Part shown: in pieces, positions 5,343 through 21,387 of the stretch | How positions within the stretch are numbered: the stretch's first letter is position 1 | Layout: each line of letters opens with the position of its first letter | NCBI GenBank assembly: GCA_018263335.1 | Contig: JADFCY010000006.1 | Coordinates: forward strand, 1-64,000 | Direction: 5' to 3' | Length of the DNA stretch: 64,000 bases | Source of the DNA: Methanolinea sp. | Lineage (GTDB): Archaea; Halobacteriota; Methanomicrobia; Methanomicrobiales; Methanospirillaceae | Translations under genes and position numbers: made by a program | Notes under the pieces: generated by a model | Told to the model about the DNA's origin: nothing | Database searches by the model: none | Seen by the model: the letters and a program-made list of their open reading frames with translations, nothing else

Positions 5343-7118
5343 CTACTTTCCCCAGAAGGGATTCTCCCTTCGCCTCATCGCGGTGAACTCTGCAAGGATC
5401 TCCTGGGTATGAACCGGCAGATGGGCAAGCATCTCTTTTTCGAGGACTTTCACGTGGCGTTCAGGGATATCCACGAAGAGATCGTCCTCCACGTTGAGTT
5501 GCCTGCCCACTGTCGCCCCTTCTATTGAGATCGCAACCTCCGCGCCCGTCTGGGCCTCCCGGATCGTCTCCTGGTTCAACTGGATAGACTTGAGATGGCC
5601 GACCTTCTTTCCGTCAGGCTGGATGAGATTCACATCGGTGCGAAGCGTCCCGCCGAGGACACGGACACCCACCACTGCAGGGTTGCTCTGCCGGAATACG
5701 CAATGGGGAAGGACCCGTATCTTTGCAGGGTGGATAATCTGCTCGAAACGCTGCTGCTCTGTCTTCCTCTTCAATTCCTCCTTCCACTGGATATAGTCGT
5801 CCACCAGTTTGTAAATCACCCTACCTTCGAAGACCTTGACCGGGAATCCCGGCTCCTTCACCATGTCTGCTGCGTCGGGGAGGAGTGGGGTGGAGAAGGC
5901 GATGAGTGCCCGGTAATAGGGGTTCTTGATGGTCTCGGCATCGATGAGGTCGTGGCGGCTCACCGAGCCCACTTCGGCACGCAGCACCCCAATCTCTTTC
6001 TCTTCGAGCTCCTTGCAGAGGGCCTCGAGTGCCCCTATGGTGTCTGCCTTGATGATCACCCCTTCTGGCGAGAGGTGGACATTCACCTCCTCCATCTCCT
6101 TCCTGATCCTGGCAATCACCTCCTCCTGGTTGCCCCTTATCACCTGGAACGGGGAGCCGGCGATTGCACCTTCGAGGTTCGGGGCACTCACCTTGATCCC
6201 CGCGGCCGCAGTGACTGCACGTACCCGCTCAAAACGGTCCTCCACAAGGATCTCCTTGAGAGGCCGGGGCTGGAGCAGCGCCCGTACCTTTGTTACGACA
6301 ATGCCGTCATGCTTTGCAACTGCAACCTCATCGCCAACCGAGAGGCGCCCGTCGTAGAGGATGACATCGAGGGTTGTTCCAAGCCCCTTCTCCTCCTTCA
6401 CTTCGAGCACAGTTCCCATCCCCGGGCCTTCGGCGGAGAGCGAAAGTTCCTGCTCCATGTACCGCTGAGCAAGGCCGATCATCACCATCAGGAGTTCTGC
6501 AATCCCTTCTCCCGTGTGGGCGCTGACCGGAACAATTGCCAGGTTCCTCCTGAAGTCAGACACCCTGTCAAAGCGCTCCCCAGAGAAGCCGAGGTCCGAG
6601 AGCTCCCCGACGATCTCATAAAGGCGGGTCTCCACAAGTTCCTTTACCCTGTCATTCTGTTTTGAGAAACTGGCCAGGAATGCCTCGTCCCTGTGGACCC
6701 TCCATCCGTGAATACGGTCGATCTTCGTCGCCGCAATGACAAAGGGGGTCTTGTAAGTGCGAAGGATCTGGAGTGCCTCGATTGTCTGCGGCTGGAATCC
6801 CTGGTTGATATCCACGACGACGATTGCCATATCCGCAAGTGCTCCTCCTCTCGCCCGCAGGGTGGTGAACGCATGATGGCCGGGCGTATCAATGAAGAGG
6901 AGCCCCGGGACATTGAGCGCGACCTTCTCCATGCTCCCGCTCATCTTCCTGATTGCATCGATGGGAACAATCGTTGCCCCGATATGCTGCGTGATTGCGC
7001 CATCCTCTGTGCTCACCACAGATGATCCCCTGATCCGGTCAAGGAGCGATGTTTTGCCATGGTCAACGTGGCCGAGCACGCAGACGATAGGCGTCCTGAT
7101 ATGCTTCTTCTGTGTCAT
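5343..7118 (-). CDS. infB: Translation initiation factor aIF5B/IF2
   Basis: The 591-residue GTPase promotes subunit joining and initiator-tRNA placement. G1 GHVDHGKTSLLD begins near residue 16, switch II is IDTPGHHAF, and the nucleotide-specificity loop is ATKIDRIHGW, which has the archaeal/eukaryotic AATKID form. Domain II, the domain III segment with VIIKADTIGALEAL and the C-terminal domain II-like module (VFRQSNPAVVGVRVLGGTL) follow. No intein is present. The ATG at 7118 follows TGGAGGAGA, a strong ribosome binding site, and gives the usual short archaeal N-terminus; an upstream in-frame extension to 7169 is rejected. Confidence 0.96.
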   Translation of the reverse strand: MTQKKHIRTPIVCVLGHVDHGKTSLLDRIRGSSVVSTEDGAITQHIGATIVPIDAIRKMSGSMEKVALNVPGLLFIDTPGHHAFTTLRARGGALADMAIVVVDINQGFQPQTIEALQILRTYKTPFVIAATKIDRIHGWRVHRDEAFLASFSKQNDRVKELVETRLYEIVGELSDLGFSGERFDRVSDFRRNLAIVPVSAHTGEGIAELLMVMIGLAQRYMEQELSLSAEGPGMGTVLEVKEEKGLGTTLDVILYDGRLSVGDEVAVAKHDGIVVTKVRALLQPRPLKEILVEDRFERVRAVTAAAGIKVSAPNLEGAIAGSPFQVIRGNQEEVIARIRKEMEEVNVHLSPEGVIIKADTIGALEALCKELEEKEIGVLRAEVGSVSRHDLIDAETIKNPYYRALIAFSTPLLPDAADMVKEPGFPVKVFEGRVIYKLVDDYIQWKEELKRKTEQQRFEQIIHPAKIRVLPHCVFRQSNPAVVGVRVLGGTLRTDVNLIQPDGKKVGHLKSIQLNQETIREAQTGAEVAISIEGATVGRQLNVEDDLFVDIPERHVKVLEKEMLAHLPVHTQEILAEFTAMRRRENPFWGK

Positions 7119-7933: not shown

Positions 7934-7949
7934 TTGATTGGTGGAGTGT

Positions 7950-8822
7950 ATGCAGCGTTCATATCTGAAATGTGTGGTTCTTTGTGTCGTTCTCACGTTC
8001 TCGATCCCGTTCTGCGTTGAGGCCGATACTCTCACGGGAAAAGATGAGGGAATTTACCGGTTCCATGTGAATGTAGAAGGCGCCGAGGGGTATGTTGATG
8101 GACAGATGGTGGGAGTGGTCAAAAACGGGCTCCTGGATCTCCCCCTCTCCGAATCGGGAACTCCATACCGGACATATTCCTTCCAGAAAGAGGGATATTA
8201 CACCTACAATGGTGTGATCAACTCCGTGCCCGCAAAGGGTCAGGTTTTGCATATTTATGCCACAATGACTGCAATGCCCATGATCGAATACAGCAGGGTG
8301 CACCTGCTGGTCAGTCCCCCCGATGCGAAGGTCACCTGGGACGGAGAACCTGCGCGTGAGGTACCGCCCACGGGAATCCTGATCATCTACAACGTGGTCC
8401 CGGGAACGCATACCGTGAAAGTGACAAAGGATGGGTATCTGCCCATCGAACAGGTGCTGAACGTTGCCCGGAACGATGTGATGAGAGTTCCCCTTACCCT
8501 GCAACCAGTGGCACTCGGCTCCATCACTTTTGAATCTGTCCCGCCGGGTGCATCCGTCTTCCTCGATGGACAGTTCAGGGGGATGACCCCGCTTGTGCTC
8601 CACGATATCCCCGCCGGGAGCCACTCGGTGACCCTCACAAGCGATGGGTTCCAGGACAAAATATCCGCAGTCCAGGTCACGGGTGGAGGAAACACCCTGG
8701 TAAGTGAGACCCTGAATCCCGCCACACCTGTGCCTGGGAGCACGAGGGCTGCAATCTCCCCGCTTGTCCTGGCAGGTGCCCTGGCTGTTGCAGGAATACT
8801 CTTTGTATCAAGAAGGCCCTGA
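7950..8822 (+). CDS. Secreted/membrane-anchored PEGA-domain protein
   Basis: The 290-residue protein has a signal peptide (hydrophobic core YLKCVVLCVVLTFSIPF, cleavage near residue 25). At least two PEGA-type beta repeats follow: one around residues 110-185 (VHLLVSPPDAKVTWDGE...PGTHTVKVTKDGYLP) and one around 190-260 (ITFESVPPGASVFLDGQFRG...PAGSHSVTLTSDGFQ). A C-terminal membrane helix ends in arginines. The layout indicates an extracytoplasmic protein held in the membrane. ATG 7950 is preferred, with GGTGGAG just upstream; TTG 7938 and GTG 7941 are alternatives. Its role is unknown. Confidence 0.85.
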   Translation: MQRSYLKCVVLCVVLTFSIPFCVEADTLTGKDEGIYRFHVNVEGAEGYVDGQMVGVVKNGLLDLPLSESGTPYRTYSFQKEGYYTYNGVINSVPAKGQVLHIYATMTAMPMIEYSRVHLLVSPPDAKVTWDGEPAREVPPTGILIIYNVVPGTHTVKVTKDGYLPIEQVLNVARNDVMRVPLTLQPVALGSITFESVPPGASVFLDGQFRGMTPLVLHDIPAGSHSVTLTSDGFQDKISAVQVTGGGNTLVSETLNPATPVPGSTRAAISPLVLAGALAVAGILFVSRRP

Positions 8823-8949: not shown

Positions 8950-10251
8950 TTACTCCGTAATGAGGCGTGCGACCGGGGCAATCCCTATCTTGGCCTTCCG
9001 GATCCTTGTCTCATCAAGGAGGTGGCGCATATCGACGAACTCTCCCTGCGCGAGTATCTTCTTCACCTGGCCCTCGAACAATGCCGCCGGGTCATATGCC
9101 ACGTTCCTGAAGACCACCCCGTGAGTGTGGCTGAATAACCGGGCCGTCCCCTCCTCTGCCGTTTGATGCGGCCCAAAGAACGAGTCAAGCGTTGCCCTGT
9201 CAAAGTGCTGATCCGCGAGTGCGAAGTCGACGAGCACGCCAAAGCCGACCATTGTGTCACCCCTGTACCTGGGCGCCGTCTCATGCTCAAACCACAAGTC
9301 GTACACGGAAGGATCCGTGATCGAGACGCCGGTGGGAGGTGCATGATCCCGCACCGGGGAACGGCTCACCCCCTGGCTCTGCAGCCCCTCAAGGACTGCC
9401 CACCAAGCGACGGCAAGAACACCCCTGAAGTCGCGGTACTCTTCCCTTGCCCTCTCGAGGAGCATGCGGGATATCTCCCTAATCGGCATGCCCTCCCGCA
9501 AGACGCTCTCAAAGATCATAAACTCGTAAAAAGGGCCCTCCAGCGAGAGAGAATACCCTGAAAAGATCTTGACCTCGCCCGTGTCCCTGACCGGAGTGAA
9601 GAAATCGGGGGTATCATTCCCATCCGTGGGCAGCCAGACCATCGAGCCGTGGAGCACCACCATCTCTCCCAGGAAAGGCAGGACTTCTTCAGCGTTTTTC
9701 CCAAGCGCCCCGAGGCCAAGCGCATACTCCATCCCGCTGAAAGGGATCACCGCAATCTTGCGGGCGTCGATTCGGGAATGGAGCACCGCGTCCAGGTCGC
9801 CCCACAACCTCAGTGCCGAGGGCCTCCGGGAACCCTGCTCGATGCTGATTCGTGCCCCGTTCTTCTCAAAGGATGGAGATTGCAGGTCGGCAAGGAGAGA
9901 GGCCCGCTCCTCTGCCCTCCCCAGGACGCGCACGGCCTCCTGCGCCGTCGGGTAATCGGGAAAGATCGAGAGAAAACCTGCCATTTCAAGGACTTTTTTG
10001 GGAAAATCACCGGTCGCAGCGAGTGCTACTTTCCCCCCGCGCTCACGCAGTCTCTTCTGGAGGGCGAGCATAACCCTGATTCCGGCGCTTGAGAGGTATG
10101 GGACATCTTTCATATCGAGGACGAGGGACCGGTCATCGTCATGCAGTGCCCCCTTTGCTGCCTGTTCCAGGACCATCGCTCCGTGACCATCCATCCTCCC
10201 GCGGCACACCAGCACTACCACGCCGTTCTCCTTTCTCTCTGCGATCTCCAT
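8950..10251 (-). CDS. STAS-domain protein with a large uncharacterised C-terminal region
   Basis: Residues 1-110 form a STAS (anti-sigma-factor antagonist) domain: beta strands VVVLVCRGRMDG and SLVLDMKDV, then YLSSAGIRVMLALQKRL with the phosphorylatable serine (Ser54/Ser55) in the usual place. The remaining 320 residues match no family I recognise; they are acidic, soluble and include GMEYALGLGALGKNAEEVLP and a WLPTDGNDTPDFF segment. Archaea have no sigma factors, so the STAS part probably docks another signalling partner. ATG 10251 is chosen because GGTGAT lies 7 nt upstream; GTG 10263 and ATG 10260 are possible. It is divergent from msrB. Confidence 0.8.
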   Translation of the reverse strand: MEIAERKENGVVVLVCRGRMDGHGAMVLEQAAKGALHDDDRSLVLDMKDVPYLSSAGIRVMLALQKRLRERGGKVALAATGDFPKKVLEMAGFLSIFPDYPTAQEAVRVLGRAEERASLLADLQSPSFEKNGARISIEQGSRRPSALRLWGDLDAVLHSRIDARKIAVIPFSGMEYALGLGALGKNAEEVLPFLGEMVVLHGSMVWLPTDGNDTPDFFTPVRDTGEVKIFSGYSLSLEGPFYEFMIFESVLREGMPIREISRMLLERAREEYRDFRGVLAVAWWAVLEGLQSQGVSRSPVRDHAPPTGVSITDPSVYDLWFEHETAPRYRGDTMVGFGVLVDFALADQHFDRATLDSFFGPHQTAEEGTARLFSHTHGVVFRNVAYDPAALFEGQVKKILAQGEFVDMRHLLDETRIRKAKIGIAPVARLITE

Positions 10252-10289
10252 CTGATGCATCACCTTACGATCAGGGGTTTGGGCGAGCG

Positions 10290-10366: not shown

Positions 10367-10834
10367 ATGAACGACTCCCCCAAAGATCATACCCAAATCC
10401 TGATATTCTCCGTCGTTGCGGGAAGGCTTGAATCCGTGGAACGGGTGACCCTGCCCCCCGAAGAATGGCAAAAACGGCTCTCTGCCGAGCAGTTCCGCGT
10501 AGCCCGGCTGAAAGGGACTGAGCCAGCCTTCTCGGGGGTCTACCACGATCTCCATGATGCAGGGATCTACCGATGTGCCTGTTGTGGAACGGACCTCTTT
10601 TCTTCCAGGGACAAGTTCGATTCCGGAACTGGGTGGCCAAGTTACCGGGCGCCCGTTCATTCAGCGAATGTCCGTTTCGCACAAGACTGGAGTTTTGGGA
10701 TGAAGAGGACCGAGGTCCTGTGCGCACGGTGCGACGCGCACCTCGGACACGTCTTCGACGACGGGCCCCCACCGACCGGGATGCGATACTGCATCAATTC
10801 GGCATCGCTCTCCTTTGCACCGCAGGGTGCATGA
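10367..10834 (+). CDS. msrB: Peptide-methionine (R)-S-oxide reductase MsrB
   Basis: The 155-residue enzyme reduces methionine-R-sulfoxide in proteins. Zinc-binding pairs CACCG and CARCD are present, as are GTGWPSY, HLGHVFDDGP and the catalytic MRYCINSASL (Cys142). A second resolving cysteine could come from the N-terminal zinc region or from thioredoxin. ATG 10367 starts the family-like N-terminus. No msrA is adjacent. Its presence fits the other oxidative-stress genes in the window. Confidence 0.95.
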   Translation: MNDSPKDHTQILIFSVVAGRLESVERVTLPPEEWQKRLSAEQFRVARLKGTEPAFSGVYHDLHDAGIYRCACCGTDLFSSRDKFDSGTGWPSYRAPVHSANVRFAQDWSFGMKRTEVLCARCDAHLGHVFDDGPPPTGMRYCINSASLSFAPQGA

Positions 10835-10985
10835 ACCCCGGCCATCTCCCTGCCTGGAGACATGCGACAGAAGGGCCCCCATCATGATGTGTGATGGTGC
10901 GAGTGGGGGGAGATGCCGACCGGCACTCTCTTGAGAACACCCTGCCAACCTCTCCTACAGGAATGGTTCACGTGAGGAGAGTTGC

Positions 10986-11780
10986 ATGGAGGAGGGGCCG
11001 CCCACCATACTGACTGCCGACGACGAGGAGTTCCTTGAGGAGCTTTCGGAGTACCTCGATATCCTCGCCAACAGCACCCGGCTTCGCATCCTCCGCCTCC
11101 TCGAGCGCAGGCCAATGGACGCTCGCTCGCTCTCGATCGAGACTGGGACAAGTTACGAGAATACGAAGAAGCACCTGGAAAGGCTCCTCTCCGCAGGACT
11201 TGTCACCAGGCGCCCGGGCCTCGGGAAAGAGACGTCAAGGGGCATCCACCCGGCATGGGAATATTCGCCGGTGCCGGGAGTCATCCAGAAGCTGCAGAGG
11301 GACCTGGGCATTCTCTCAGCATTGCCCCCGCAGGTCCGGGCAGCCGGGATGAAGGACCAGGTCTCGGCAGTGAGACGGAGGATCGCCGAAGAGCTCGGAT
11401 CTCCTGGGAGGATCCTCGTCGTCCTGGGAGGGGAGTGGGACCAGAAGATCATCCCGCTCTCTTCTTTGGCCATCGCACTCGGGAGAGCAGAAGAGGGCAG
11501 GACAGCCGGGTTGCCAGGTTGCGAGATCCTGGCCTTCCCTTCCACCTACAGGTCACTGACCCGGATTTCCAGGCCGCATGCCGTGATTTCATTCACAGGT
11601 GGGGGCTGCTTCGTCGAGGATTGCGGAAGTACCGGGGGCACGTATGTCAATGGGAAGAGGATTCCGGGCCGGGAAAAAGCCGCTGTCAGGGACGGCGACC
11701 TCATCTCGCTCTCCATGGGAGAGTTCGGCGCTTCCCTGCTCTTCCTCTCCGACCAGGAGCCTGGAGAGAGAGAGGAGTGA
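10986..11780 (+). CDS. HTH regulator with C-terminal FHA domain
   Basis: The 264-residue protein joins an ArsR-like winged helix (about 20-90: LDILANSTRLRILRLLERRP, then TGTSYENTKKHLERLLSAGL) to a forkhead-associated domain (about 185-255) with the phosphothreonine-binding pattern ISRPHAVISF and DCGSTGGTYVNGKRI. It should read a phosphothreonine and change DNA binding. Only 6 nt separate it from the Ser/Thr kinase gene, so kinase and phospho-reader are almost certainly cotranscribed. Start ATG 10986; GAGGAGAGTTGC precedes it. Confidence 0.88.
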   Translation: MEEGPPTILTADDEEFLEELSEYLDILANSTRLRILRLLERRPMDARSLSIETGTSYENTKKHLERLLSAGLVTRRPGLGKETSRGIHPAWEYSPVPGVIQKLQRDLGILSALPPQVRAAGMKDQVSAVRRRIAEELGSPGRILVVLGGEWDQKIIPLSSLAIALGRAEEGRTAGLPGCEILAFPSTYRSLTRISRPHAVISFTGGGCFVEDCGSTGGTYVNGKRIPGREKAAVRDGDLISLSMGEFGASLLFLSDQEPGEREE

Positions 11781-11786
11781 GAAGCC

Positions 11787-13565
11787 TTGAGGAAGAGAAG
11801 CCTCCTCATTGTCATCCTGCTCACCTGCACAGTGGTAGCCTCGGGTCTCTCTTCGGCAGCAATCACGTACGAGAAAAATTCATCACGGGGCATCCCAACG
11901 GAACTCATCGAGAAGACCCTGGCAATCCAGGAGAAGTACAAAGATATCGCAGAGAGAAGTGTTCCCTTCTTTCCTCACCCGTCCACCCCTGCGAAAACAC
12001 CTCCCACGGCCACGACTGCTCCCACCCGGACCATCACGCCAATGCCAATGGAATCCCCCGCTCCTGCCTCCACTGCAGTCACCCCCACTCCCACCTCAAA
12101 CGAGAGTGCCGTGCCCGGAGAAGGGGAGGGAGGGGATCAGGCAACGGGAGCTTTTTTCTCCACCCTCCTCATCCTTGCCCTCGTAGCCGTCTGCGGCTTC
12201 CTCTTCCTCCTCGTCCGCTCACGGGAGATGGCGGCTCCCGAAGATAATACCCCGTGGTGGGGGCCGTGGCGCACGGCGGTGGCTGCATCCCACGCATTGC
12301 TCGGAGCCCTCTTCTTTCTGGAGAGCCTGTCCTTTGTCGCGTCCGGGATCACGGGTTCCATATCATCGGGCAGAGGTATTGCCTGGATTGTCGCGGGAGG
12401 GTTCCTCCTTACGTACAGCGCGATCTCATCAGCAGGGATGGCTTACGCCTCCTATTATACCCTTGAACGGAAGGTGGGCATGATCGTGCATACTGCACTC
12501 CTCGGGGCAGGTCTCGCCGTATTCGCAGCGTCTCTCCTTGTCCCTGCCATTCCTTCACCCACTCCAATCCCTGCCGTGACATTCCTCGCCGGACTCTGCC
12601 TCGTCGTCATTCAGGCGTATCTTCCCAGGAAGAACGCTCCTCTACAGGCAGCCCCCTATACCGACACGATGCTCTTTGAGGACGAATCCGCGCACTCCCC
12701 TCACTCCTTCCCTCCGGAACTCGCATCAAGGTACTTTGATGCGCGTTTTCTTCACCAGGGCGGAATTGCCCGGGTATTCTCCGCGCGGCGCAGGGACGAC
12801 GGGGTGATGGTTGCCGTCAAGGTCCCCATCCGGAGCAACGAGCAGACCGGGAGATCGATGCTCCGGGAGATGAGTGTGTGGAAGACGCTCGTCCATCCAG
12901 GTATCGTCCAGGTCAACTCTGCCAACATCCTCCCCGTTCCATTCGTGGAGATGGAGTACCTGCCCGGAAGCCTCGCGGGCATCACGCTTCCCTTGGACCC
13001 GGCAAAAGCCGCCTCCCTTGTCGGGAAAGTGGCCGCCGCCCTCTCGTTTGCACACAGCCGCGGCGTGATCCACCGCGACCTCAAACCAGCAAATATCCTC
13101 CTCACGTCTGATGGGGAACCAAAAATCGGAGACTGGGGACTCTCGCAGGACGACGGCATTTCTCGCGAGACCACTCTCCATGGATTCTCACTCTCTTACG
13201 CGGCACCGGAGCAGCTCGATCCCGGAAGGTTTGGAAAGACGTCGGAGAAGACCGATATCTACCAGCTTGGGATCATCCTCTTCCAGCTCCTGACAGGCAC
13301 GCTCCCATTACCTGGTGAGAGCATCGCAGAGGTGGCAAAAGAGCGTCTTTCCGAGAGAGAGGAGCCTTTCTTTGCCGATGACCCCGCTCTTTTCATGTTC
13401 GGCCCGGTCATCCAGCGCTGCCTCGCCGCAAACCCGGAAGATCGTTACCCCTCCCTCCTTGAGTTCATCCACGACCTCTCTACCGCCGGGAGGATATATC
13501 ATGCGTCCCGAAGTGTCCCGTCCGGAGGTGAGGGAGAGCACGACAATGGACCCGCAGACAGGTGA
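11787..13565 (+). CDS. Membrane-bound eukaryotic-type Ser/Thr protein kinase
   Basis: The 592-residue protein starts with a signal-like hydrophobic segment (5-25). A Pro/Thr-rich linker (about 68-115) follows, then five predicted membrane helices (about 120-290), and a cytoplasmic kinase domain (about 315-565). The domain shows a glycine loop (HQGGIARVF), VAVKV with catalytic Lys345, HRDLKPANILL with Asp431, GDWG with metal-binding Asp449 in place of DFG, and APEQL. All catalytic residues are present, so it should be active. It starts with TTG. The final 65 bases overlap the next gene. The external part may sense envelope or surface signals; the adjacent FHA-HTH protein is a likely target. 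Confidence 0.9.
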   Translation: MRKRSLLIVILLTCTVVASGLSSAAITYEKNSSRGIPTELIEKTLAIQEKYKDIAERSVPFFPHPSTPAKTPPTATTAPTRTITPMPMESPAPASTAVTPTPTSNESAVPGEGEGGDQATGAFFSTLLILALVAVCGFLFLLVRSREMAAPEDNTPWWGPWRTAVAASHALLGALFFLESLSFVASGITGSISSGRGIAWIVAGGFLLTYSAISSAGMAYASYYTLERKVGMIVHTALLGAGLAVFAASLLVPAIPSPTPIPAVTFLAGLCLVVIQAYLPRKNAPLQAAPYTDTMLFEDESAHSPHSFPPELASRYFDARFLHQGGIARVFSARRRDDGVMVAVKVPIRSNEQTGRSMLREMSVWKTLVHPGIVQVNSANILPVPFVEMEYLPGSLAGITLPLDPAKAASLVGKVAAALSFAHSRGVIHRDLKPANILLTSDGEPKIGDWGLSQDDGISRETTLHGFSLSYAAPEQLDPGRFGKTSEKTDIYQLGIILFQLLTGTLPLPGESIAEVAKERLSEREEPFFADDPALFMFGPVIQRCLAANPEDRYPSLLEFIHDLSTAGRIYHASRSVPSGGEGEHDNGPADR

Positions 13566-14811
13566 TGAGATACCGACCCCCCTTACGAAAGCGCGGGACG
13601 GCCCGGTCCAGGTTGCCATCGTGAGGTGTACCGACTACGAGCCGGACCTGGTATACCGTGCCCTTCAGAGGGCGGTCTCGCTCGCTGGTGGCCTTGACAC
13701 GTATGTTGCTCCCGGGACACATGTGCTCGTAAAACCTAACCTCCTGCAGGGGCTTCCACCTGACCGGGCAGTCTGCACACACCCTGCGGTAGTCGGGGCG
13801 GTGATCCGGCTCCTGAAGGAGAGTGGGTGCGAGGTCACCCTTGCCGACAGCCCCGGCGGGGGCATCCGATACACCCCGGCATCCCTGGCCCGCCAGTACG
13901 AGAGGGCAGGGTACGGAGTCCTTGCCGGTGACCCTGGGTGCGTTTTGAACCTCGACACGGGTTCCGACACGGCGAGGTTTCCGGAAGGAAAGGTCTGCAG
14001 GGAGTTTCCTCTCATACGCCCTTACTTCTCCTCTGACCATGTGGTCGTGGTCTCAAAGGCAAAGACCCATGTCCTGACACTCCTTTCGGGTGCAACGAAG
14101 AACCTCTTTGGCCTCATACCGGGCCTCGAGAAACCACTCTTCCACTCACGGTTCCAGTCGGGGGAACGATTCGGTGAGATGCTGATAGATTTGAACCTCC
14201 TGGTCAGGCCGTCCCTTCAGGTTGCAGATGCCATCGTGATCATGGAAGGGGATGGGCCCACGTCAGGCACGCCGAGGCCCCTGGGATTTCTCCTGGTAAG
14301 CCCGAGCCCTCTTGCGCTCGATATGGTCCTCTGCAGGCTCATGTCCCTCAACCCGAGAGATGTCCCCTACCTCCGGTGTGCCATCGGACGCGGACTCCTT
14401 TCCCCTGATGGGAGCGACCTTGAAATAATCGGCGACCCCCTGCCTCCAGGCGACACTCTTCGCGTGAAAAAGCCGCGCACCTGGGCAGGAAGCGGGGGCG
14501 GGATACAGGTCACTCCCCTCTTTCGGGCGGTGCACGCCCTTGGAAAGGTGTACGCCATGCGCCCTTCCGTGAATCCTGACCGGTGCAGCGGATGCGGAAA
14601 GTGCGTCACCATATGCCCTGCCAATGCCATTACCCTCGCGGGCGGTCGTGCCCGCATCCGCTCCCGCCATTGCATGCGATGCTACTGCTGCCACGAGATG
14701 TGCAGTGAAGGCGCACTCTCCCTCGAGAGGGGATTTGCAGGGTCTCTCCTCCACAGGGTGATGAGGGCGTGCGGGTTCGCCCGCGATGAGGACGAGCGGC
14801 ACGGGGCTTGA
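13501..14811 (+). CDS. DUF362 protein with C-terminal 2[4Fe-4S] ferredoxin domain
   Basis: The 436-residue protein contains the DUF362 core (VAIVRC...VLVKPNLLQG, VVVVSKAKTH, GATKNLFGLIPG, ADAIVIMEGDGPTSG). A ferredoxin-like end carries CSGCGKCVTICP and a second cluster CMRCYCCHEMC with irregular spacing. DUF362 proteins are Fe-S proteins of poorly known function. ATG 13501 has GGGAGG seven bases upstream; ATG 13546 is an alternative. It overlaps the kinase gene, implying cotranscription. Confidence 0.85.
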   Translation: MRPEVSRPEVRESTTMDPQTGDEIPTPLTKARDGPVQVAIVRCTDYEPDLVYRALQRAVSLAGGLDTYVAPGTHVLVKPNLLQGLPPDRAVCTHPAVVGAVIRLLKESGCEVTLADSPGGGIRYTPASLARQYERAGYGVLAGDPGCVLNLDTGSDTARFPEGKVCREFPLIRPYFSSDHVVVVSKAKTHVLTLLSGATKNLFGLIPGLEKPLFHSRFQSGERFGEMLIDLNLLVRPSLQVADAIVIMEGDGPTSGTPRPLGFLLVSPSPLALDMVLCRLMSLNPRDVPYLRCAIGRGLLSPDGSDLEIIGDPLPPGDTLRVKKPRTWAGSGGGIQVTPLFRAVHALGKVYAMRPSVNPDRCSGCGKCVTICPANAITLAGGRARIRSRHCMRCYCCHEMCSEGALSLERGFAGSLLHRVMRACGFARDEDERHGA

Positions 14812-15282: not shown

Positions 15283-16071
15283 ATGAGAAAGAGACCACTT
15301 TCACCTGTCTTTATTTTCGTGATAGTCCTGGCACTCTCTTGTTCAGCACTGTGCGCAACGTGCTCCGGAGAGAGCATCACGGCAACCATCGGCGATTCCA
15401 TCCCCCTGAACGGCACCGTGCAGCTCGCAGACATGGTCTATCTCTTCGTGACCGGGCCGGGGATGCCTCCAAACGGCGCCCGTATGGAGAACAGCAACGC
15501 GGCCGTCGTCACCGGGGAGCCGGGTACCTTCACCCAGGTCATGGTCGAGAACGACCGGTGGGCATACACCTGGAACACGGGAAGGGTCTCTGGAGGACTT
15601 GCCCCGGGAAGCCACACAGTATACGTCTCTCCCACGCCGGCAGCCGCAGATGCACTTTCCGGCGTGAAATATGCCGAGATCGAAGTCATCCTCCATGCTC
15701 CAGTCACGACCGCGACACTCGACGTGGAATCAAGCCCTTCCGACGCAGGGATCTACTTAAACGGGAAGTACTCGGGCAACACCCCCCGCGTATTCTCAGG
15801 CCTTGCCCCCGCCAGGTATGAGATCCGGCTGGAAAAGCAGGGGTATGCCGATGAGACAGGAGAGGTAACCCTGGCAGCAGGAGATGATGTCGAGTTCACC
15901 CGAACACTTTTTCCTGCAAAAACACCCTCCACTACGGTGACGACCCTCGGAGCGACTGTCCCGGGAGTGGGGGAGACGTCGTCCCCTGGCCCCACTGCCG
16001 TACCTCTCAATGTGGCCTGGATTGCAGGAATGCTGGTCATTGCAGGGCTTCTGTTCAGGAGACCCGGGTAA
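15283..16071 (+). CDS. Secreted DUF3821/PEGA-domain protein
   Basis: The 262-residue protein has a signal peptide (1-26). A domain of the DUF3821 type found in methanogen surface proteins follows (about 30-140: GDSIPLNGTVQLAD, VYLFVTGPGMPPNG, WAYTWNTGR, GSHTVYVSP), then a PEGA repeat (about 147-215: LDVESSPSDAGIYLNGKYSG, ARYEIRLEKQGYAD), a Thr/Pro-rich spacer and a C-terminal helix with RRPG. The architecture indicates a membrane-anchored surface protein. GGGGAG precedes the ATG. Confidence 0.85.
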   Translation: MRKRPLSPVFIFVIVLALSCSALCATCSGESITATIGDSIPLNGTVQLADMVYLFVTGPGMPPNGARMENSNAAVVTGEPGTFTQVMVENDRWAYTWNTGRVSGGLAPGSHTVYVSPTPAAADALSGVKYAEIEVILHAPVTTATLDVESSPSDAGIYLNGKYSGNTPRVFSGLAPARYEIRLEKQGYADETGEVTLAAGDDVEFTRTLFPAKTPSTTVTTLGATVPGVGETSSPGPTAVPLNVAWIAGMLVIAGLLFRRPG

Positions 16072-17100: not shown

Positions 17101-20100
17101 TCACTGAGACCGCGGATACCTGAAGGACCCGCGCGGGATGCGGATCTCGAACCTGGCACCTTTCCCGGGCTCTCCGGTCTCCCGGATCGAGAATCCCGTC
17201 ATCGAGAGGACTTCTCGGACCAGGAAAAGCCCGTATCCCGTGTTCTGCCCCACCCCGGCAGAAAATATTGCCTCTTTCTGGTCCGCGGGTATCCCCACTC
17301 CGTCATCCTCGCATACGAGCACCAGCCCCTCGTCGTCCTCATGCAATGAGAAGGTGATGCGGGAGAGTTCCCCCCCGTACCGTATGGAATTCTCGATCAG
17401 GGCGAAGAATACCTTCTCGAGCATCGGGTCCGCGTAGATCTCGAGGCCGTTTGTGTCAAGATAGACCGTGACCTGATGGAGATCCTGGAGTCCGGCGGCT
17501 CTCCTGACTGCCGCGCTCACGTCCTGCCAGGAGGGGGATTTCATCCCCACGTTCTGGTACGTCTCGGTGAATCCGAGGAGATCCTGGAGTGCGTCCACTC
17601 CCCGCCTCTCCTTGTGGATGTAAGTGAGGAGGAGGGGGTCTTTGGTCTGCTCCTCCATCAGCTCGAGGTAACTCTTCAGGAGGAGGATCCTGTTCTGTGC
17701 ATCATGGCGGGTGATGCGGGAGAGGAGGGAGAGCTTCTTGTTCATGAGGGAGAGGACTTCCTGCGCCTTCTTCTGATCGGTGATATCGACGGAAAAGACC
17801 GCTGCGCGCGTGACTTTTCCGGCAGAGTCACGCACAGGATACACGCTGACGAGATACACCGAGTTCCCGCGGACCATCTCGAACCTTGCTTCCCTGCCCG
17901 AGGAGAAGACGTCCTCTACATGCGCGCGCATCGTCTCGTCCATCTCGACGTGTAAAATGGCAGAGGCAGCCATCCCCGGCGTGCCGGTATCAGGGACAGA
18001 ATAGCGGGTCCCGAACGCATCATTCGCAGAGATTATCCGGCCCTCTGCATCGATGAGGCATGCGGGTTCGGGGATTGCATTGATGAAGGTGCGCAGCAGG
18101 TACTCGCTCTCCATCAGCGCGTCTTTTGCGTGCTCGAGATCGGTGATGTCGAAGGCGATTCCCAGTACACCTACAATCTCCCCCTCTTTTCCCTTGAGCG
18201 GCTCCAGGTGGGCCCTGTAGATGCGGTCCCGGTAATGTGCGATATAACTCACCGATTCGCCCTTGATCGCCCGCGTGTGTGCGGAAACCGCCTCGATTGC
18301 CCCCGGCTGGTTTTGGTAAAAGTCACCGACCTTCATCCCCACCACCTGGTTTGTCGAGATACCCATGTCCGCGAGCCCTGCACCGTAGGAGGAAGTGAAG
18401 ACGAGATCGGTATCGGTCGTCCAGAGCGATCCCGGGACCTGTTCTGCGATCATCTGCAACCGCTCTTCCCTCTGTCTCAGCTCCTCCTCGGCCTTCTTCT
18501 TCTCGGTGATCTCCAGGGCAATTCCACGGGTCCCGACGATTCGTCCCTCCCCGTCTCTTACCACGCTCACGTTGTTGAGAACCGGGAAGACGCGCCCCTT
18601 GCCCTTTCTGGCAACGAACCTGCATTCGAAATTGATTGCCGGCTCCCCTGTCCTGAGGAGGTCCCAAAACACCGCCCTGCCTGCATCGAGATCGTCGGGA
18701 TGCAGGTTCTGGTCGAACGGATGCCCAATAATCTCCTCTTCTGTGACTTCGAATGCCTCAAGCCCGGCCTTGTTCATGAACCTGATGCGCCCCTCCAGGT
18801 CAGCAGTATAGATGATGTCGGGGAGGTCGTCGACGAGTTCCCGGTACTTCTTCTCCATTGCGCGGACTGCCGCCTCGATCCTCTTCTGGTCGGTGATGTC
18901 AGAGACGGTGAAGACGATAGGGGATGTTCTGTCTCCGGGATTGAGGGGCGAGGAGCTGATCAATACGTCAAAGAGGGTGCCGTCTTTTCGGACCCAGCGG
19001 CTCTCGACTGACCCGACCCCCGTCTCCCACATGGGGGGATATTTTTCACTTCCAACCCTCGCAAACTCCTCGTCGCTCGGATAAAGCATCCGTGCACTCT
19101 TGCCCTCCATCTCGTCCGGCGAGTATCCTGTCATCCTTGCGACCGAGGCATTGACCCAGGAAAAGACGCGGTCCTTCACTATACCGATGCCGACGGGAGC
19201 CGCGCGGAAGATGCCAGCGAGGAGTGCCTCGCGCTCGCGGAGATCCTCCCTCGATCTCCTCTGCTCATCAATGTCGGTGATGGTTCCCGTGCAGCCGGAA
19301 TACTTGCTGCCGTCCCACCGGGTCCGAAGCGATACCCGGGCCCACCGTTCTTCTCCATTGCTCGTTTTTATCTGCCATTCCACTGAGAATGGACCCGATC
19401 TGGGCTCCTTCTTCAACACTTCCAGTCCCTGCATCACCTGCGGAATATCAGTGGGTCGCAGGTAGTCGGTAAAATGGTGTCCAGTCACTTCCTCAGGCCG
19501 ATACCCGAGGATGCGGGTGACTGCAGGGCTTGCATAGGTGATGACATCGGATGAGTCAAGCGAGAAGACAATATCATTGATCGTCTCCACGAGCTCCCGG
19601 TATTTCTCCTCGCTTCGCATGAGTGCACCCTCTGCCTCCTTTCGCGACGTGACATCCATGGTCTGGAACAAAAACCCCACGATCGATCCCTGCGGTTCCC
19701 GGAGAGGTTCGAGGGAGCTTGATGCGTACCAGACCTCCCCATTCTTTCTCTGCGACCGGAACTCCAGGTTGCGCAGGCCTATTAAGTCCCTGTATGCCCG
19801 GGAAACCTCGTCGATTACCCTGTCCCTGTCGTCTGGGTGCACGAGTGAGAGCGCCTGCGATTCGAGCTCGTCGGTGGTATATCCCGTCAACTCCCTGATG
19901 TTCGGGCTCGCGTAGGTGATGCTCCCCTTCAGGTCTGTGATGATGAGCATGCTCGGCGCCGTCTCCACCATCGTCCGGAACTTCTCCTCGCTCCTGCGGA
20001 GCGCTGCCTTCTCCTGCTCCAGGAGCCTGCAGTAGTCGTTCATGGAGTCCTGGGTAGCCCGCAGCTCCTCGAGGGTTGCCGCCATCTGGGTGTTTGAGGC

Positions 20101-21387
20101 CTCGAGCTCCTGCTTGGCCATCTCGAGGGGGGAGATGTCCTGAATAAGGGCGACAAAGTAGTCAACCTCGCCATTCTCTCGCCTGACGGGAATTGCAGAA
20201 ACTTCCACGTTGATATACCGGCCGTCCTTCCTGACGTACCGTTTCTTGACGGTATGCGAAGCCTTTTCCCCCGCCATCACCTGCCGGTAATCTTCAAGCT
20301 CTTTCTCGAGATCTTCCGGCGGAGTGATGTCTGCCCATTTTACGCCCTTCAGCTCCTCCAGGCTGTAGCCAAGCATCTCGCAGAGCTTCTGGTTTGCATT
20401 CATCCAGCGCATGTCGGGTGAAGTGATGGCGATTCCCACCAGGGGGAGTTCGAAGTAAGAGCGAAACCTCTTCTCGCTGTCCACAAGCTCGGTCTCAATC
20501 CGTTTTCGCTTGAGGATCTGCCACAGTCCCCCCATCAGGTGAGTGACCTGCCTGATGTCGTCATCGCCATATTCCAGGGGCTTGTTCCCAAGCCCCGCCA
20601 CCATCACGATCCGGGTCCCGTCCATCACCGGGACTCCGAGGTGCCGGGAGACCTTCACATGACCTTCCGGAAACCCCCTCTTCGCAGGTTCAGGCGATGT
20701 GTAGTCATTGGTGATCACCGGGCGACGCTGGCGGACAGGCTCCCCCCAGAGGCCAGTCTTCTCGACGGGGTATATTAACTGCTTCTCTGCGACGCGGCAC
20801 TCGGAGAGTGCGGACTTCGACCAGGCATACATGGAGAGCACCGTCTCCTGTTCATTGAGGAACGCGAGGTAGCCCATCGTGCTCCCCGTGAGATCGATTG
20901 CAGACTCCAGCGCGTAGGTGCAGAGCTCCATTTGATCGGACGAAGACATCTGGTGGAGCGTGATCATCGCCTGGAGCCTCCGCTGGTTCAGCCGCACCTC
21001 CTCTTCTGCCTTCTTCCGGCGCACCGCCTGCATGATCATGTTGCGGAGCTCCGCAAACTGGGACTTCGGGTCGCCCCCTTTCTGGAGATAGAATGAAGCG
21101 CCGATATTCAGCGCCTCGATGGCGACATGCTCTCTTCCCCTCCCGGTAAAGATGATGAAGGGAATATCGAGACCTCTCCCCTTCACCGACTTTAAAAACT
21201 CGATACCGTTCATCCCCGGCATCTCGTAATCTGACACGATGATGTCGAATTGCGCACTCTCCAGCAGACGGAGGGCAGATCCTGCCGATTCTGAGAGGGT
21301 CACCGACATCTTTCCCTCTCTTTCGAGGAATATCTGGGTGATATCCAGGAGGGCAGGTTCGTCATCGACGAGGAGCACGGAGATCAT
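17101..21387 (-). CDS. Receiver/GAF/multi-PAS histidine kinase
   Basis: The 1428-residue protein is cytoplasmic. It has a receiver domain (1-125, phospho-acceptor Asp53 in VSDYEMPGMNG), a GAF-like domain (about 150-295, containing the MGYLAFLNEQETVLSM segment) and about seven consecutive PAS/PAC units (about 305-1210). A dimerisation helix has an archaeal-type H-box LSRITRHDAQNRILLL (about 1233), followed by an ATPase domain (N-box ENSIRYGG, G1 EDDGVGIPADQ, G2 GYGLFLVRE). Having the receiver first suggests it is itself a phosphorelay target. No output regulator lies next to it. Many such PAS-rich kinases occur in Methanomicrobiales; signals are unknown. Confidence 0.93.
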   Translation of the reverse strand: MISVLLVDDEPALLDITQIFLEREGKMSVTLSESAGSALRLLESAQFDIIVSDYEMPGMNGIEFLKSVKGRGLDIPFIIFTGRGREHVAIEALNIGASFYLQKGGDPKSQFAELRNMIMQAVRRKKAEEEVRLNQRRLQAMITLHQMSSSDQMELCTYALESAIDLTGSTMGYLAFLNEQETVLSMYAWSKSALSECRVAEKQLIYPVEKTGLWGEPVRQRRPVITNDYTSPEPAKRGFPEGHVKVSRHLGVPVMDGTRIVMVAGLGNKPLEYGDDDIRQVTHLMGGLWQILKRKRIETELVDSEKRFRSYFELPLVGIAITSPDMRWMNANQKLCEMLGYSLEELKGVKWADITPPEDLEKELEDYRQVMAGEKASHTVKKRYVRKDGRYINVEVSAIPVRRENGEVDYFVALIQDISPLEMAKQELEASNTQMAATLEELRATQDSMNDYCRLLEQEKAALRRSEEKFRTMVETAPSMLIITDLKGSITYASPNIRELTGYTTDELESQALSLVHPDDRDRVIDEVSRAYRDLIGLRNLEFRSQRKNGEVWYASSSLEPLREPQGSIVGFLFQTMDVTSRKEAEGALMRSEEKYRELVETINDIVFSLDSSDVITYASPAVTRILGYRPEEVTGHHFTDYLRPTDIPQVMQGLEVLKKEPRSGPFSVEWQIKTSNGEERWARVSLRTRWDGSKYSGCTGTITDIDEQRRSREDLREREALLAGIFRAAPVGIGIVKDRVFSWVNASVARMTGYSPDEMEGKSARMLYPSDEEFARVGSEKYPPMWETGVGSVESRWVRKDGTLFDVLISSSPLNPGDRTSPIVFTVSDITDQKRIEAAVRAMEKKYRELVDDLPDIIYTADLEGRIRFMNKAGLEAFEVTEEEIIGHPFDQNLHPDDLDAGRAVFWDLLRTGEPAINFECRFVARKGKGRVFPVLNNVSVVRDGEGRIVGTRGIALEITEKKKAEEELRQREERLQMIAEQVPGSLWTTDTDLVFTSSYGAGLADMGISTNQVVGMKVGDFYQNQPGAIEAVSAHTRAIKGESVSYIAHYRDRIYRAHLEPLKGKEGEIVGVLGIAFDITDLEHAKDALMESEYLLRTFINAIPEPACLIDAEGRIISANDAFGTRYSVPDTGTPGMAASAILHVEMDETMRAHVEDVFSSGREARFEMVRGNSVYLVSVYPVRDSAGKVTRAAVFSVDITDQKKAQEVLSLMNKKLSLLSRITRHDAQNRILLLKSYLELMEEQTKDPLLLTYIHKERRGVDALQDLLGFTETYQNVGMKSPSWQDVSAAVRRAAGLQDLHQVTVYLDTNGLEIYADPMLEKVFFALIENSIRYGGELSRITFSLHEDDEGLVLVCEDDGVGIPADQKEAIFSAGVGQNTGYGLFLVREVLSMTGFSIRETGEPGKGARFEIRIPRGSFRYPRSQ

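Follow-up and report, generated by a model that had tools for sequence, protein, structure and literature searches.

A membrane Ser/Thr kinase and a winged-helix/FHA regulator as a candidate signalling pair in Methanomicrobiales

The regulator–kinase locus

In a 64,000-nucleotide (nt) stretch of a Methanolinea sp. genome (contig JADFCY010000006.1; the whole stretch analysed is referred to as the window), a gene encoding an ArsR-type winged-helix regulator with an FHA domain lies 6 nt upstream of a gene encoding a membrane Hanks-type Ser/Thr protein kinase (Table 1). The genome comprises 2.03 Mb in 47 contigs and is related to Methanolinea and other Methanomicrobiales; because an McrA subunit is encoded in it, the host is a methanogen. 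In several sister species, the regulator stop and the kinase start overlap by 4 nt (at locus L007, the FHA gene ends at 6807 and the kinase frame runs from 6804), which argues that both genes are translated off one transcript.

The regulator matches the Pfam models FHA (2.2e-13, residues 192-242, 50.9 bits against a cut-off of 20.7) and HTH_5/ArsR (1.7e-7, residues 29-74, 31.4 bits against a curated cut-off of 22). It scores below the cut-off of the NCBIfam ArsR metalloregulator subfamily (36 versus 55 bits), no NCBIfam equivalog was found above its cut-off, and the Pfam search of the regulator gave no SARP or BTAD domain. In an AlphaFold model built with 18 sequences, the winged helix is joined by two linker helices to the FHA sandwich, while residues 1-10 are disordered (pLDDT below 50). 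The winged helix carries a near-invariant SYENTKKH sequence (residues 56-63). The region of the FHA phosphothreonine pocket comprises G166, R167, R193, S195, H198, S215 and N222; in the alignment of homologues, G166, R167, R193, H198 and S215 are conserved in 100 %, N222 in 98 % and S195 in 87 % of sequences, and the Arg/Ser/Asn residues R167, S195 and N222 are all present in the window regulator. Because the pocket residues are nearly invariant, the phosphothreonine pocket is retained. The top Foldseek match of the regulator model is the FHA domain of Bdellovibrio DgcB in complex with the phosphorylated peptide from its own N-terminus, and EmbR, ArnA, GarA and OdhI are also matched.

The kinase matches Pkinase (Pfam, 1.9e-35) and has a complete catalytic set, including the glycine loop, HRD, K345, E361, D431, N436, D449 and APE, with the five numbered residues found in 100 % of the aligned sequences (72 kinases). 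The DFG motif reads D-W-G in all 72 kinases where aligned, the window kinase included. The best PDB matches of the catalytic domain are StkP and PknB, and the best NCBIfam match is the PASTA kinase model, at 150.8 bits against a cut-off of 450. The AlphaFold model, which is of moderate overall confidence (mean pLDDT 69.5), shows a signal-like helix, a Pro/Thr-rich stretch (41 % Pro+Thr+Ser) that is disordered for the most part, five further long helices, a disordered juxtamembrane segment and a kinase fold, giving in total six long hydrophobic helices with the catalytic domain at the C-terminus. Judging by the helix count, the Pro/Thr-rich stretch probably lies outside the cell, with the kinase domain inside. 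The ectodomains differ across the kinase family, being Pro/Thr-rich, PEGA or NosD/right-handed beta-helix, and the kinase domain is constant, a pattern suggestive of a receptor family.

An earlier sequence-only reading of this DNA had described an operon-like pairing, 6 nt apart, of a membrane Ser/Thr kinase with an FHA-containing DNA-binding protein, and both the pairing and its coordinates proved exact on re-analysis. Its description of a winged-helix protein with a phosphothreonine-binding FHA domain agrees with Pfam, Foldseek and the pocket residues, and its complete kinase core inside with a Pro/Thr-rich part outside is borne out by the presence of all catalytic residues and by a helix pattern consistent with an inside kinase. 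The second pair of the genome, the invariant threonine of the regulator tail and the likeness to EmbR–PknH had escaped that reading.

Recurrence of the pair and its upstream DNA

Conservation of the pair, on which the sequence-only reading had staked its proposal, was found throughout much of the order. Among 232 Methanomicrobiales genomes, a profile built on the full-length HTH-FHA protein detected it in 154 (33 of 40 genera), and strong Hanks-kinase matches were present in 164; comparison of the two genome lists by hand gives 151 genomes with both, 3 with the regulator only, 13 with the kinase only and 65 with neither. When 82 HTH-FHA genes were read in DNA, 70 had a kinase directly downstream on the same strand. 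The other 12 include the second copy of the host genome, which is paired once more flank is read, the L049 gene, which is followed by a PP2C phosphatase, and ten genes that stop at a contig end, eight of which show the start of a signal-peptide/ectodomain (secreted or membrane) open reading frame (ORF) of the expected kind. The pair is also present in twenty further regions picked for weak similarity, with L117 being broken and L113 apparently the same contig as L049. Because it recurs across Methanomicrobiales, the pairing is not due to chance. Among 393 genomes sampled from the phylum, matches outside the order were confined to the HTH part of the profile. In family f3 (genera g24 and g25), most genomes are without the HTH-FHA protein and without strong Hanks kinases, and the system is therefore dispensable or lost in this family.

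The host genome encodes two strong Hanks kinases, each beside its own HTH-FHA gene, and no other clear Hanks kinase. In the kinase of the second pair, the membrane helices are preceded by a PEGA domain and a long repeat rich in Thr (TTSPTTAATTTVP). Across 86 pairs, the regulator and kinase distance matrices are correlated (Spearman 0.80, Pearson 0.89), part of which is accounted for by vertical descent, and the two trees share 27 splits supported at 0.9 or higher. Both trees recover the window-type clade and the second-copy clade as monophyletic groups; that the two paralogous clades stay matched argues against partner swapping, and the pair appears to diverge as a unit.

A conserved DNA element precedes the regulator gene, and its ACCGGCAYYCTCTT is kept upstream of most window-type genes while the flanks diverge. 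The 2.03-Mb genome has no exact match other than the copy at this locus, and all six 1-mismatch sites fall within ORFs, which makes a general promoter an unlikely source of the conserved block. The looser ACCKKCAY is found on the sense strand in 29 of 101 upstream regions and on the other strand in 3, with about 2 expected. It lies at a similar distance in three clades, including members of Methanoregula and Methanoculleus, and in Methanoregula it immediately follows a TATA-like AATATAAA. The element is consistent with autoregulation, as a candidate operator. A regulon search from the motif gave no intergenic near-match among the six best genome sites, and a scan for sigma-70 promoters, the consensus of which is bacterial and inapplicable to archaea, gave nothing.

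Candidate phosphosites and the proposed mechanism

Thr7, located in the disordered N-terminal tail, is the sole position that never varies among the first 19 residues of the regulator (81/81, entropy 0), its near neighbours showing entropies of 1.7 to 3.3 bits. In 18 more divergent loci, Thr7 is kept and its distance from the first helix is unchanged. FHA domains select phosphothreonine, and the fact that Ser never replaces Thr7 therefore fits this selectivity. Thr7 is followed by hydrophobic residues at +1 and +2 in 70 of 83 sequences and at +3 in 62 of 83; in the window regulator itself, +3 is Thr, which is non-hydrophobic.

A second and weaker candidate site is the juxtamembrane Thr of the kinase. 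Thr followed by two hydrophobic residues (Thr-phi-phi) occurs in the juxtamembrane segment of 50 of 86 kinases, as against 7.8 in shuffles, and the control patterns with Ser (2) or Ala (4) show no excess. All ten window-type kinases contain D-T-x-L-F-E in this segment. The activation-loop threonines, considered as a family-wide FHA ligand, were rejected, as many kinases have Ser there. The invariant Thr7, the enrichment of Thr-phi-phi in the kinase juxtamembrane segment and the operon-specific DNA element are new observations.

We propose that the two genes encode a dedicated signalling pair, in which FHA docking, phosphorylation of Thr7 and binding of the phosphorylated Thr7 by the same or a partner subunit would control DNA binding, and we give this proposal a slightly better than even chance. 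In this scheme, in which all the phosphorylation and binding events, together with the signal, the direction of regulation and the target genes, are inferred, the membrane kinase would sense an envelope signal and activate itself, and the regulator FHA domain would first dock on a phosphothreonine of the kinase, which in the window subfamily is perhaps Thr294. The kinase would then phosphorylate Thr7 in the disordered tail, and the FHA domain would bind the phosphorylated Thr7 of its own or a partner subunit, leading to release of the regulator from the kinase. This binding would alter the geometry of the winged-helix dimer and thus change DNA binding, including that at the element ahead of the operon that encodes it. 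The regulator could be reset by a PP2C phosphatase whose gene lies elsewhere in the genome; such reversal is plausible because PP2C phosphatases are common in the order (168 of 232 genomes), one is present in this genome and their genes are sometimes found beside the pair. PP2C genes adjoin or lie near the pair or kinase on G113 contig C50, on G124 contig C1 near 1811800 and on G128 contig C63, as well as on G196 contig C1 near 1984300-1988800, forming kinase–regulator–phosphatase clusters.

More tentatively, and with a probability that we place well below even, a phosphothreonine relay of one kinase and one regulator may operate across the order, in which the FHA domain would be passed from the phosphorylated Thr-phi-phi site of the kinase to the site in its own tail. 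If this is true, one recognition module would serve docking, release and control of DNA binding, and the relay would be the Ser/Thr equivalent of a two-component system. The sequence-only reading had envisaged a Ser/Thr route from the envelope to gene expression as an alternative to two-component signalling. The route is favoured by the anatomy of the pair, its order-wide conservation and co-divergence, and the intact catalytic and pocket residues, but the word alternative is too strong: because 24 HATPase_c matches are found in the same genome, the pair would work alongside two-component systems rather than replace them. One of these matches is a 1428-aa protein encoded within the window, which has a receiver-like sequence at its N-terminus and a HATPase_c domain at its C-terminus, together with many PAS-like repeats.

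Several points weigh against the proposed signalling pair. The conservation of Thr7 could reflect contact with DNA or another subunit, and in the paralogue L049b/L113b, where the FHA domain and kinase are kept, Thr7 has been lost along with the recognition-helix motif. Neither the second pair of this genome nor some of the Methanoregula kinases have the juxtamembrane motif, and the Thr-phi-phi pattern was picked after viewing the sequences, which are related, although the equally related Ser and Ala controls are flat. Activation-loop threonines are not conserved among the aligned kinases, and because they vary the docking site is uncertain. The DNA element was likewise chosen after looking at the sequences, and a single operator common to all copies is unsupported, the second pair and its clade being without the motif. 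Moreover, as the sequences are related, the counts given above are not independent. Finally, EmbR of Mycobacterium tuberculosis, which is compared with the regulator below, was not found to be phosphorylated in vivo under normal growth (PMC9239209).

In the L049 cluster, also seen in L113, two HTH-FHA genes are present; the regulator bearing Thr7 is followed by PP2C, and a regulator that lacks Thr7 and has a degenerate recognition helix is followed by the kinase. The arrangement looks like a split or heterodimeric version of the pair.

Among the other explanations, the enrichment of Thr-hydrophobic-hydrophobic in the juxtamembrane segment, the D-T-x-L-F-E of window-type kinases and the retained FHA pocket would suit an FHA domain that acts as a tether only, holding the regulator at the membrane, and so off the DNA, on a juxtamembrane or activation-loop phosphothreonine of the autophosphorylated kinase until a phosphatase acts, with Thr7 remaining unphosphorylated and making DNA or dimer contacts. 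We regard this as unlikely, since about 40 % of kinases, among them that of the second pair in this genome, are without the juxtamembrane motif, and Thr7 is invariant, never Ser, in a disordered tail. Quite unlikely is phosphorylation elsewhere on the regulator, in the linker or winged helix, that would directly alter DNA binding, with the FHA domain just recruiting the kinase. This was first proposed for EmbR–PknH, in which the FHA domain was reported as essential for both interaction and phosphorylation, and T22, T164, T275 and other residues were mapped after co-expression (PMC9239209); in the methanogen regulator, however, the other conserved threonines (T55, T60, T83 and T219) sit inside folded domains, with T60 in the recognition helix. 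That the two proteins are co-transcribed non-partners, the kinase having other targets and the regulator sensing another kinase or only autorepressing the operon, is very unlikely, because, although co-transcription alone is no proof of partnership and one HTH-FHA gene in L049/L113 precedes a PP2C phosphatase instead, the genes are adjacent in nearly every lineage, diverge as a unit and have congruent trees, and no further clear Hanks kinase is encoded in the genome.

The gene that follows the kinase, encoding a DUF362 and 4Fe-4S protein, is probably co-transcribed with the pair. It is not a required part of the pair; a homologue lies downstream in seven window-type relatives, whereas the wider family has none there. 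The pair is flanked on each side by a gene for a secreted or membrane protein with PEGA-type repeats, and both are kept in window-type relatives, among which the nearby genes for a STAS-domain protein and MsrB are also retained.

Table 1. Positions of the pair, its parts, its neighbours and related loci
Feature	Position	Strand	Basis or remark
Conserved cis element ACCGGCACTCTCTT, candidate autoregulatory operator/promoter element	10919-10932	+	ends 53 nt before ATG
ArsR-type winged-helix/FHA regulator, 264 aa	10986-11780	+	ATG start; Pfam FHA, HTH_5
Thr7 codon, candidate phospho-acceptor and FHA ligand	11004-11006	+	alignment; disordered tail
Winged helix-turn-helix, residues 14-95	11025-11270	+	Pfam, alignment, AlphaFold
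FHA domain, residues 143-254	11412-11747	+	Pfam, alignment, AlphaFold, Foldseek
Membrane Hanks-type Ser/Thr protein kinase, 592 aa	11787-13565	+	TTG start; Pfam Pkinase
Pro/Thr-rich segment after signal-like helix, residues 26-120, probably extracellular	11862-12146	+	sequence, AlphaFold
Five further hydrophobic helices, residues 115-277	12129-12617	+	sequence, AlphaFold
Disordered cytoplasmic juxtamembrane segment, residues 282-304	12630-12698	+	sequence, AlphaFold
D-T294-M-L-F-E, candidate docking phosphosite	12666-12668 (Thr294 codon)	+	motif in juxtamembrane segment
Kinase catalytic domain, residues 312-565	12720-13481	+	Pfam, alignment, AlphaFold
DUF362 + 4Fe-4S protein	13547-14811	+	start overlaps kinase stop
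Secreted/membrane protein with PEGA-type repeats	7938-8822		
STAS-domain protein	8950-10263	-	
MsrB	about 10370-10834		
Secreted/membrane protein with PEGA-type repeats	15283-16071		
1428-aa receiver-like/PAS-like/HATPase_c protein	17101-21387	-	
Second HTH-FHA/kinase pair, same genome	G000 contig C42:17828-21003 (L087 7745-11277)	- (L087)	
Cluster with two HTH-FHA genes	L049 5989-7554 and 9924-12473		also in L113

Comparison with known systems

The use of Hanks-type kinases by archaea is little known, and the worked example found in the literature is the Arn network of Sulfolobales. No description of the methanogen pair was found in the literature searched, coverage of which was partial, so that an earlier mention is possible. 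Here, a kinase can be named along with a probable substrate, a probable phosphosite and a candidate operator, for most members of a methanogen order of environmental importance. Signalling from Ser/Thr phosphorylation to transcription in archaea thereby becomes open to a direct test that needs two purified proteins and a single point mutant.

In the Arn network (ArnA–ArnB with ArnC and ArnD), as in the methanogen pair, an archaeal FHA protein is tied to Hanks-type kinases and to the control of gene expression. However, no fusion of a winged helix to the FHA domain is described for ArnA, its partner ArnB is a vWA protein, the network belongs to another archaeal lineage, and ArnC was found to be cytoplasmic, whereas the methanogen kinase is of the membrane type (PMC5300886, PMC10470591). 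The catalytic domain of the window kinase resembles those of PknB and StkP, from which the family differs in its Pro/Thr-rich, PEGA or NosD/beta-helix ectodomains and in having D-W-G in place of D-F-G.

The tail of the regulator recalls GarA, OdhI and DgcB, in which the self-ligand Thr is followed by hydrophobic residues at +2 and +3, the latter being key to recognition in DgcB (PMC6733907). A disordered N-terminal tail, one conserved Thr and hydrophobic +2/+3 residues are shared features, but +1 is Ser in those proteins and mostly Ile, Leu or Val in the methanogen regulators, and their outputs are metabolic enzymes or a GGDEF domain, whereas that of the methanogen regulator is predicted to be DNA binding. 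Self-binding of the phosphorylated tail is known for those proteins, whereas for the methanogen regulator it is a proposal from sequence and model.

The closest likeness in gene arrangement is to EmbR–PknH, in which a winged-helix regulator with a C-terminal FHA domain is also encoded upstream of a membrane Ser/Thr kinase on the same strand; embR and pknH form one operon, and the EmbR FHA domain is needed for interaction with PknH and phosphorylation by it (PMC9239209). EmbR is a member of the SARP family, with an OmpR/PhoB-like domain and a BTAD domain, whereas the window regulator is ArsR-like and without BTAD. The two systems differ further in being bacterial and archaeal, respectively, and in the invariant N-terminal tail Thr of the methanogen regulator. 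By analogy, the window regulator may work like EmbR but is not a member of the EmbR family, and the pair looks like an independent invention of the EmbR–PknH arrangement.
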